64,000 nt of DNA, from the NCBI RefSeq assembly GCF_029607905.1, contig NZ_JAPHEH010000001.1, positions 1,207,530 to 1,271,529 on the forward strand, in the 5' to 3' direction. The notes under the pieces were generated by a model, which saw only the letters and a list, made by a program, of their open reading frames with translations, was not told the origin of the DNA and ran no database searches. Below, one piece after another: positions 3,189 through 58,091 of the stretch. A program made the position numbers and the translations under genes. Source of the DNA: Thiovibrio frasassiensis. Its GTDB lineage: Bacteria > Desulfobacterota > Desulfobulbia > Desulfobulbales > Desulfurivibrionaceae. The first letter of the stretch is position 1. Each line of letters opens with the position of its first letter.

Positions 3189-4061
3189 ATGTCTGAACCC
3201 GCCATCCCGCCACTAACCCTGACCATCATCACCGGCCTTTCCGGGGCAGGCAAGTCCACGGCCCTCAATGTTTTTGAGGATGCCGGGTTTCTCTGTATCG
3301 ATAACCTCCCTGTTTTTCTCCTCCTGCCCCTGCTCGACGGCATGGCCCGGAAAGCTGATGGGCCCCACCGCCTGGCTCTGGTCATGGATGCCAGGGATGC
3401 CGAGCTTGCCCCCGCTCTGGCCGGAGTATTGAAGGAAGTGAAGCCCAAGGTCACGCTGGCGCAGATCGTTTTTCTCGAGGCCAATGACACGGTTCTGCTC
3501 CGGCGTTACAGTCAGCTGCGCCGCGCCCACCCCCTGGCTCAGGTCGGTTTGGTTCAGGACGGGATTGCCTCCGAAAAGACGCGTTTGGCCGGTCTTCGCC
3601 ACCTGGCTGACCGGGTGATCGACACCAGCAATCTCACCCCCACCGAGCTGCGGCATAAGCTCCTGCAGCACGATGCTTCTCCGGTTGCCGACATGCGGGT
3701 GAACATCCTTTCTTTTGGCCATAAACATGGCTTGCCAAGCGAGGCAGACTTGTTGTTTGATGTCCGTTTTTTGCCAAACCCCTATTATGTGGCAGAGCTC
3801 AAGGAAAAAACCGGGCGCGATGCGGCGGTGGCTGCGCATGCCTTGGCAAATGAGAGCGGCCGCAAATTTTTCGCCCACCTTTCCGGGCTGCTTGATTTTT
3901 TGCTGCCGGAATTCGAACAGGCTGGCAAGGCCTATCTCACCATCGCCGTTGGCTGTACCGGCGGGAAACACCGCTCCGTCGCGGTGGCCGAGGAGGTTCA
4001 TCGCCATCTTGCCGGGGGCAAATGGGTGGTGAAGCTCTTCCATCGTGATCTGGACAAATAG
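3189..4061 (+). CDS. rapZ: RapZ family RNase adapter / nucleotide-binding protein
   Basis: P-loop protein of the RapZ (YvcJ/YhbJ) family; in enterobacteria RapZ is an RNA-binding adapter that guides RNase E to the GlmZ sRNA and so controls amino-sugar synthesis. Walker A is GLSGAGKS (residues 16-23), followed by the conserved CIDNLP segment, and the C-terminal signature GCTGGKHRSVAVAE is intact. It is 290 aa from ATG 3189; a TTG at 3168 would add seven residues, and neither start has a strong ribosome binding site. It lies 42 bp after rpoN, probably co-transcribed. Whether a GlmZ-type target exists in this organism is unknown. A dispersed repeat begins two bases after the stop. Confidence 0.94.
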   Translation: MSEPAIPPLTLTIITGLSGAGKSTALNVFEDAGFLCIDNLPVFLLLPLLDGMARKADGPHRLALVMDARDAELAPALAGVLKEVKPKVTLAQIVFLEANDTVLLRRYSQLRRAHPLAQVGLVQDGIASEKTRLAGLRHLADRVIDTSNLTPTELRHKLLQHDASPVADMRVNILSFGHKHGLPSEADLLFDVRFLPNPYYVAELKEKTGRDAAVAAHALANESGRKFFAHLSGLLDFLLPEFEQAGKAYLTIAVGCTGGKHRSVAVAEEVHRHLAGGKWVVKLFHRDLDK

Positions 4062-4062
4062 G

Positions 4063-4181
4063 GTAACTGTCCAGCAGCACCGCATCTGCTTTGTCATCGG
4101 CCTGCTCATTGCAATAGCACACTTCGCTGGCCTCTTTCGCGCATCTGCGGCAGCAGCGAAGCGGCGCTGCTGAACATTTAC
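4063..4181 (+). repeat. dispersed structured repeat, copy B (after rapZ)
   Basis: A 119-bp element, the shortest and best delimited copy. It starts GTAACTGTCCAGCAGCACCG and ends with the approximate reverse complement GCGGCGCTGCTGAACATTTAC, giving terminal inverted repeats of about 20 bp with few mismatches. The inner hairpin of copies A and C is missing, as if deleted. It begins one base after the rapZ stop codon and contains no reading frame of note. Confidence 0.82.
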
Positions 4182-4285
4182 CCCCCCCCTTATTGATTTG
4201 CTATTTTTTTGCTTTAAGCTGGATCGTTGTCAAATAAAAAAACAAGGCGAAAGGCGCACAAGCGACCTGGGCCTGATGAGCGCAT

Positions 4286-5212: not shown

Positions 5213-5602
5213 ATGCACGAAAAAGAACGGGCGGAAATGATCGCGGTTATTGGCGATTTCTTGGAGCTGGGCCATGTGGAGAACATCATGGCCATGTTCA
5301 GGCAGGACCCTTCTCTCTACGCGCTCAGCGGCGAGCTGCTGCGTGATGAGCGCTTTCGGGTGCGGATGGGGATGGCGGTGCTTTTTGAAGAGATGATGGC
5401 TATCCACCCGCAGGAGGTGGCGCTCGCTATTCCCTCCTTGCTTCCGGTGCTCAGTGAGGAGACGGTGTGGATGCGGGGGGAGGCCGTGACCCTGCTGGGC
5501 ATCATCGGCACCACCGAGGCGTTGGCCCACCTCAAGCCCCTGGCCGATGACCCGGAGCCGCAGATCCGGGAGATGGTGGGGGATATTCTCAGTGAAAAGT
5601 GA
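5213..5602 (+). CDS. HEAT-repeat protein
   Basis: A 129-aa, all-helical, acidic protein. Two or three HEAT-like helical pairs can be seen, including RVRMGMAVLFEEMMAIHP, VALAIPSLLPVLSE, VWMRGEAVTLLGIIG and ALAHLKPLADDPEPQIREMV. The repeat consensus with DPEPQIRE is typical of HEAT/PBS-lyase-type scaffolds. There is no signal peptide or catalytic motif. The ATG at 5213 is preceded by AAAGGA at 5201-5206; a longer frame from 5150 lacks such a site and its extra residues look non-conserved. It converges on aspS, with a strong hairpin between the two. Function unknown; probably protein-protein interaction. Confidence 0.78.
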   Translation: MHEKERAEMIAVIGDFLELGHVENIMAMFRQDPSLYALSGELLRDERFRVRMGMAVLFEEMMAIHPQEVALAIPSLLPVLSEETVWMRGEAVTLLGIIGTTEALAHLKPLADDPEPQIREMVGDILSEK

Positions 5603-5608
5603 AGCGTT

Positions 5609-5668
5609 GAAAATGAAGAGTGAAAAGCGGAGAACTTTTAATTTTTAACTTTTCACTCTTCATTTTTC
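5609..5668. terminator. long AT-rich inverted repeat between convergent genes (bidirectional terminator)
   Basis: An 18-nt arm AAAATGAAGAGTGAAAAG (about 5610-5627) is matched exactly by its reverse complement at about 5649-5666, with T- and A-rich sequence in the loop. It lies between the stop codons of the HEAT protein gene and aspS, so it can end transcription from both sides. The same GTGAAAAGTGAA-type word recurs at 7482-7516 and in degenerate form near 495-590, so it also behaves as a dispersed repeat. Confidence 0.65.
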
Positions 5669-5677
5669 ACTGTTCTC

Positions 5678-7462
<1,785 letters not shown>

Positions 7463-7481: not shown

Positions 7482-7516
7482 AGTGAAAAATGAATAGTGA
7501 AAAGTGAAAAAAATTA
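7482..7516. repeat. GTGAAAAGTGAA-type repeat arm upstream of aspS
   Basis: A single arm, AGTGAAAAATGAATAGTGAA and onward, of the same word family as the inverted repeat at 5609-5668, so aspS is flanked on both sides. Just beyond it, at about 7512-7535, is a second recognisable intergenic word (TTAACGCAACGGCGCAGAGG). No coding potential is seen. Confidence 0.5.
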
Positions 7517-17069: not shown

Positions 17070-17107
17070 AAAACCACACATGTTTCACGTGAAACATGTG
17101 TGGTTTT
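17070..17107. promoter_or_regulatory. parS centromere site inside a 38-bp perfect palindrome
   Basis: The 16-bp core TGTTTCACGTGAAACA (17081-17096) is an exact match to the universal bacterial parS consensus. The symmetry continues outward on both sides without mismatch to 17070 and 17107 (arm AAAACCACACA before the core), so the whole 38 bp is self-complementary. It sits between the stop of the M20 peptidase gene and parA, and ends in T-runs on both strands, so it may also act as a terminator. ParB, its binding protein, is encoded about 1 kb away. Confidence 0.95.
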
Positions 17108-57921: not shown

Positions 57922-58091
57922 GTAACTGTTCGGAAGCGCCGCTTCGCTGCTGCCACCTCTGCGAGTGTCAATTGTCGGCAGCAGTGCCGACCAAGAGGTC
58001 TGCGCAGTGTGCTGTTGCACATGGGCAGGCCGATGACAGGTAAGCGAACCTGTGAGACTCCGAAGCAGATGTGGTGCTGCTGAACAGTTAC
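57922..58091 (-). repeat. dispersed structured repeat, copy C (between holB and ricT)
   Basis: A 170-bp copy, the longest, in reverse-complement orientation (same strand as holB and ricT). Terminal inverted repeats GTAACTGTTC at both ends (57922-57931 and 58082-58091) continue with scattered mismatches to about 19 bp. Two perfect internal hairpins are seen: GTCGGCA/TGCCGAC (57974-57991) and ACAGGT/ACCTGT (about 58036-58053). The end corresponding to the left end of copies A and B lies 17 bp after the holB stop. It splits an otherwise tight holB-ricT-metG operon. Confidence 0.85.

Follow-up and report, generated by a model that had tools for sequence, protein, structure and literature searches.

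The three repeat copies of the window

The window, by which we mean the whole stretch of 64,000 nucleotides of Thiovibrio frasassiensis DNA analysed here, contains three copies of a dispersed repeat which are referred to below as copies A, B and C (Table 1). These were confirmed at the positions given in an earlier, sequence-only reading (1341-1500, 4063-4181 and 57922-58091), with copy pairs aligning over 27-51 nt at 70-97% identity in a repeat search of the 64-kb window, and a blastn search of the organism's own genome with copy A returned the other two window copies at E-values of 2.3e-38 and 7.6e-11. Copy A lies directly 3′ of the lptB stop codon and copy C is located between two minus-strand ORFs (the gene names lptB, rapZ and rpoN used here are taken from our reading of the sequence). 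Copy C is inverted relative to copies A and B, and has the right end quoted in the sequence-only reading exactly.

Table 1. Repeat copies in the window and the sequences associated with them.
Feature	Position	Strand	Remarks
Copy A, hairpin unit with inserts of all three kinds	1341 to ~1502	-	Decayed right arm; no left module recognised
Copy B, hairpin unit with 14-nt insert	4063-4181	-	At the rapZ end, after the stop codon
Copy B, decayed left module	4182-4230	-	Minus-strand read from ACAACGATCCAGC; 10/13 to GTAACTATCCAGC
Copy B, candidate target duplication CAAATAGG	4055-4062	no strand	Overlaps the rapZ stop codon; 2 mismatches to partner
Copy B, partner duplication CAAATAAA	4231-4238	no strand	2 mismatches to CAAATAGG
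Copy C, hairpin unit with inserts	57922-58091	+	Left module not recognised

The copies had been described as differing by the deletion of whole blocks, and while the block differences are real, they are better understood as modular inserts of about 14, 25 and 27 nt into a minimal unit of 106 nt. At the orthologous rapZ site, the elements of two genomes (G003 and G015) differ by one clean 25-nt insert when compared by eye.

Two further repeat structures were seen in the window. A-T rich repeats of the TTAACTTTTCACTCTTCATTTTTCACT type are found in inverted orientation at 5601-5675 and 7482-7511, where they flank the ORF at 5678-7462, and a perfect 38-bp palindrome consisting of AAAACCACACATGTTTCAC and its complement with no spacer lies at 17070-17107 near minus-strand ORFs.

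Distribution of the element

A search of the whole genome (G000, 2.84 Mb) with a covariance model, as had been proposed, found that the window copies are not the only ones, with 37 distinct places identified of which three are inside the window (these places are merged blastn matches at E ≤ 1e-3 and covariance-model matches at E ≤ 0.01). At the looser threshold of E ≤ 1, blastn with copy A returned 45 places and our first covariance model, R1, returned 55 matches, many of which are both strands of one copy. R1 matches were also found in 52 of 58 genomes, the organism's own included, when at most 67 candidates were scored per genome (E ≤ 1e-3), and there was no match at this threshold in the remaining six (G034, G036, G037, G038, G046 and G055). 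A second model, R2, was built from an alignment of 77 distinct minimal copies (A4) and found matches in 43 of 395 genomes of the phylum at E ≤ 1e-4 with nine candidates scored in each, and these comprise 10 genomes of the window's order, counting the organism's own, and 33 from outside it. Related copies occur in many genomes of the order, often by the dozen, and more thinly across the phylum. One pattern match from Flavonifractor (L274) had no model match and was taken as chance.

The element is not present at every orthologous site. In the lptB-rpoN spacer it is found at the same spot in seven of the 15 readable genomes of the genus with none recognised in the other eight, and in the rapZ spacer it is intact in five of 17 genomes, present as remnants in three, and not recognised in nine (both comparisons were made by eye). 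Several of the element-less rapZ spacers (among loci L100-L116) hold other repeats of the CTCCCCCTCCC... and CCTTCGACAGG... types, and because of this the rapZ spacer seems to be a place where repeats collect.

The family had not been recognised as a named one, and in our comparison no Rfam 15 family reached its gathering score over any element tested; the sub-threshold matches (microRNA, snoRNA and similar families) were judged to be chance with none credible. Searches of open-licence papers by topic, motif and name found no description of the element.

Ends of the unit and target-site duplications

In the near-identical copies of G043 and G052, the full unit consists of a left module of ~46 nt followed by a hairpin of ~107 nt (106-109 nt). 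The young copies in these genomes and in G048 begin with GTAACTATCC... (which starts GTAAC) and end in ...GTTAC, and the unit has the terminal inverted repeats beginning GTAA expected of an IS66-family MITE. The left module starts GTAACTATCCAGC in the best-preserved genomes, and the outer 3′ arm of the hairpin is at the same time the right terminal repeat of the unit.

We looked for target-site duplications, as the sequence-only reading had suggested, and found them at 8 bp, which is again as expected for an IS66-family MITE. Of the 39 elements in G043 and G052, 29 had enough flank and a recognisable left end, and among these the duplication is exact in 21 and has no more than one mismatch in 24 (with shuffled partners, 1,000 shuffles gave 0.87 on average and never more than 4), with no exact duplication at 9-12 bp in any of the 29. 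A MITE with a TA duplication, which had been suggested by the TAA/TTA ends, was dropped once the 8-bp duplications were seen.

Of 32 elements in the organism's own genome, only 11 have a left module that can still be recognised. Six of the 11, including copy B, have duplications within two mismatches (control mean 0.66, maximum 4) and five do not, and there is one exact duplication, CAATATCG at L021. G005, which is without the element at rapZ, has one single AAATAA at the junction where copy B has its partner duplication. In the other genomes tested, four of 11 elements have an exact duplication, two have one mismatch, and five have none, including all three G019 elements. Left modules with exact duplications are also found outside the order, in three of five copies in G393 (L419, L421 and L422, judged by eye) and in one copy in G159 (L397).

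The TAAC/GTTA ends around a covarying hairpin would fit scattered attC-like recombination sites, but the copies are dispersed, occur in both orientations, and have 8-bp duplications, and we regard such an origin as scarcely credible.

Other arrangements of the unit were found amongst the 122 elements tested. Three lack a left module and have the duplication immediately beside the hairpin (exact for L178 at 7523 and L060 at 1078, and with one mismatch for L195), and two have a left-type end on the opposite side of the hairpin and a duplication that encloses end and hairpin together (exact for L158 and with one mismatch for L194), while three further left-type matches on the opposite side have no duplication. 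Because these hairpin-only and opposite-side forms carry duplications, each of the three ends (left, inner and right) may be usable. At L178 (G052:C149, 7523-7791), a unit consisting of the hairpin alone is found in tandem with a full unit, each flanked by the same eight bases, CTGATTTT. L067 (G000:C1:202235-202340) is flanked by a ~21-nt direct repeat, caggggggcggcatgagcagg, which is distant on one side and unlike the 8-bp pattern.

The same hairpin is carried by more than one architecture: in addition to the IS66-type unit with its 8-bp duplications, it is found in differently built elements in G188, G396 and G138 (L403-L417). These have other ends and a variable left flank, while the extension on their right is conserved and in some cases includes a second inverted repeat.

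IS66 elements and a candidate transposase

GTAA ends together with an 8-bp duplication are marks of the IS66 family. A transposase-bearing element with matching ends was found in G048, in which a 1,729-bp element (L204) codes for a 475-aa IS66 transposase (PF03050 at 5.7e-47), has GTAACTATCCAGC at both ends, and is flanked by an exact 8-bp duplication. The hairpin elements of this genome have the same terminal repeat as L204, their left ends agreeing with it over 15 nt and their right ends in 12 of 13 positions, and the left-end sequence GTAACTATCCAGCTT is found in L204 as well as in the L127 and L151 copies. G048 also contains other miniature elements of ~63-196 bp (L227-L246) which have the same left end, GTAACTATCCAGCTT, but not the hairpin; L235, L237, L239 and L245 of these have exact 8-bp duplications, and the GTAACTATCCAGCTT end occurs 110 times in this genome at up to one mismatch.

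Our search for IS66 ends took in GTAA ends only, and of the 15 PF03050 loci examined, four (L199, L204, L215 and L216) have terminal repeats matching at 14 or more of 18 positions and an exact 8-bp duplication. L216 (G030:C185, 1240-3653) is a 2,414-bp IS66-type element with GTAACTGTTCAG ends and the duplication ATTTTATT, and it also carries a DruA-family gene (PF14236, 1.4e-31) beside the transposase gene. DruA was considered as a partner of the element and rejected, as PF14236 is found in only four of the 58 genomes and in none of the genus. Loci with similar ends in G052, G047 and G056 contain IS66 fragments, and it should be noted that this is a likeness at the fragment level only and that 64 kb of shuffled DNA gave two chance end matches at the mismatch level used. 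The ends shared in one genome, with the fragments in others, support the suggestion that the element was moved by an IS66 transposase.

PF03050 matches are limited to 18 of the 58 genomes. There is no match in the organism's own genome or in any of the 17 genomes of the genus, though assemblies can miss IS elements, and none was found in G043, though the copies there are near-identical. The lack of an IS66 transposase in the own genome bears on the present mobility of the element rather than its origin. Since no such transposase was found in the 17 genomes, the copies in the genus look stranded, and as few of their duplications are exact, they also look old. The hairpin model had no match in the nine transposase loci tested, and the unit is therefore not a plain deletion of these IS elements.

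A different kind of transposase would be required if the repeat were REP-like or a BIME and were mobilised by a RAYT (Y1 transposase), which was the other mobile-element reading suggested originally. REP sequences are likewise palindromic with a GTAA-like 5′ end, multi-copy and mostly between genes, and there is one PF01797 match in the organism's own genome. However, PF01797 does not follow the element across genomes: it is absent from G004 (which has 62 R1 matches), G035 (29), G006 (21), G027 (12), G040 (5) and G042 (2), and present in all six R1-negative genomes, of which G036, G046 and G055 also have no R2 match and G037 has one weak match. The 8-bp duplications do not fit either, as movement by RAYT or IS200-type transposases is not known to leave a target duplication. 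The element shows no link to PF01797, and we consider this reading very improbable.

Conservation of the hairpin fold

The minimal hairpin of 106 nt is read on the strand carrying GCAGATGC...CGATGACA. From the outside inwards, its 22-pair outer stem is separated by a GA/GA internal loop from a run of three pairs; beyond a large internal loop there are two further stems, of 7 and then 6 pairs, with a small GA-rich loop between them, and the hairpin is closed by a loop of four bases. As a MAFFT alignment misplaced the 14-nt insert, we used the gapless alignment A2 and later A4. In A4, 95.9% of the cells are paired compared to a shuffled mean of 77.3%, changes on both sides are seen in 33 of 38 pairs (22.0 when shuffled), and 465 cells have changes on both sides (101 when shuffled); none of 500 shuffles gave values as high, and sliding the partners by one to three columns reduced pairing to 25-39%, though the fold tested on A4 was partly derived from the A4 sequences and this favours the fold. 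The GA/GA internal loop is fully intact in 56 of the 77 copies and one of its bases is invariant.

The wobble pairs are distributed unequally between the strands. On the folding strand there are 301 G.T compared to 25 A.C combinations over all pairs of A4, and 128 compared to 23 without four wobble-rich columns, while for the outer stem the numbers are 226 and 17 in 108 of 114 distinct elements (six were dropped because of weak pairing). An excess of G.T on one strand is expected if it is this strand, as RNA or single-stranded DNA, that must fold. The covariation and wobble counts overstate the number of independent events because relatedness is common among the copies and a structure model was used to find most of them.

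At the lptB-rpoN site the outer arms vary between species and yet are largely complementary, as in the case of CCGCCCAGC with GCTGGGCGG in G003 and CCGTGCCGC with GCGGCACGG in G015, though some copies have unpaired C.A positions and the organism's own copy has lost one arm. Differing but largely complementary outer arms at an orthologous site could be produced by single-step correction, and we considered whether the arms might be complementary only through template-switch self-correction of palindromes with no selection on the fold. Template switching predicts no strand bias, in contrast to the 301 to 25 excess of G.T over A.C, and the two inner stems covary as well, with changes on both sides in 11 of 13 pairs of A4, and bases of the internal loop are conserved. 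This makes such an explanation unlikely. Conservation of the hairpin as a strand-specific fold is well supported by these comparisons even though shared ancestry inflates the counts, and there seems to be selection on a single-stranded fold, with that strand probably being RNA.

Host context

Enough flanking sequence was available for 93 of 109 elements, and of these, seven are inside an ORF and 86 are outside any selected ORF according to a crude ORF call. Where both neighbouring genes run in the same direction, the folding strand is sense in 19 cases and antisense in 31, and this suggests little use of the hairpin in host messages; a sense-strand regulatory role was rejected as no clear orientation bias was seen amongst the 93 elements.

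These numbers bear on the possibility that the element is a host cis-regulatory or mRNA-stability RNA which was spread by selection for gene control, with its mobility being incidental. Such a role would agree with the strong covariation and the one-strand wobbles, as well as with the location of most elements outside ORFs (some were seen by eye just after stops or before starts). Against this are the sense and antisense numbers, the differences in sites between species, and the 8-bp duplications of the young copies, and we find a host regulatory RNA of this kind improbable.

Comparison with known systems

Among the closest known systems are the insertion sequences of the IS66 family, some of which have just one transposase gene. 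They too have GTAA ends and an 8-bp duplication, and the IS66 ends printed as GTAAGCGTCCGG... and GTAACCGTCCGGGCA resemble the ends of our element (PMC12888890). Unlike these, the element is gene-less and its conserved, structured right-end hairpin is absent from the IS loci tested.

ERIC, Correia and similar prokaryotic MITEs are also short, mostly gene-less, palindromic, mostly intergenic and multi-copy, and stable stem-loops in transcripts have been described for MITEs in general (PMC10969869). The element differs from ERIC and Correia in having IS66-type ends with an 8-bp duplication, and in showing compensatory change on one strand throughout the order; neither 'IS66' nor 'compensatory' appears in the main text of that review (PMC10969869).

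We also noted the candidate RNA Desulfotalea-1, as the genus behind this name is a member of the window's order. It is listed as an RNA ('?') from the Proteobacteria which is not cis-regulatory and has no Rfam accession (Weinberg et al. 2010, PMC2864571). Desulfotalea-1 may or may not be the same as the hairpin element.

Proposed origin and significance

The interpretation we favour, with a probability of roughly 80%, is that the copies are relics of a gene-less miniature IS66-type transposon which was moved in trans and which carries a hairpin conserved as a strand-specific fold. That the element is a miniature transposon with IS66-type ends is well supported by the sequence comparisons, and both the MITE and the structured-RNA parts of the original suggestion have support, though not the REP/RAYT part: the MITE reading agrees with the 8-bp duplications, the defined ends, the presence or absence of the element at orthologous sites, and the transposase-bearing element with matching ends, while the structured-RNA reading agrees with the strong covariation and with wobbles confined to one strand. 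Both may be true at once.

In the mechanism we propose, an IS66-family transposase encoded elsewhere would recognise both ends of the unit and move it in trans, with insertion producing an 8-bp duplication of the target. The conserved strand would act as RNA, or less likely as single-stranded DNA, at some point in the life of the element, and the fold might have a role in transposition or in controlling it, or might help the host to tolerate insertions.

We suggest more tentatively, as a possibility that falls somewhat short of an even chance, that the hairpin is a mobile structured nucleic acid of a new class, probably RNA, which is phylum-wide and found in more than one architecture. The outer arms would track the terminal repeat of the local transposase while the inner fold remained constant, and with three usable ends (left, inner and right), hairpin-only and flipped forms would also move.

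Bacterial MITEs are usually viewed as IS elements minus the gene. The element described here carries a domain which is absent from the IS elements tested and which is kept as a one-strand fold while the ends change completely. Should the fold act in transposition or in controlling it, a DDE-type element of the IS66 family would have a component made of structured RNA or structured DNA, and we are aware of no other such case. The element also accounts for dozens of intergenic repeats in the T. frasassiensis genome and in its relatives which are not covered by Rfam.
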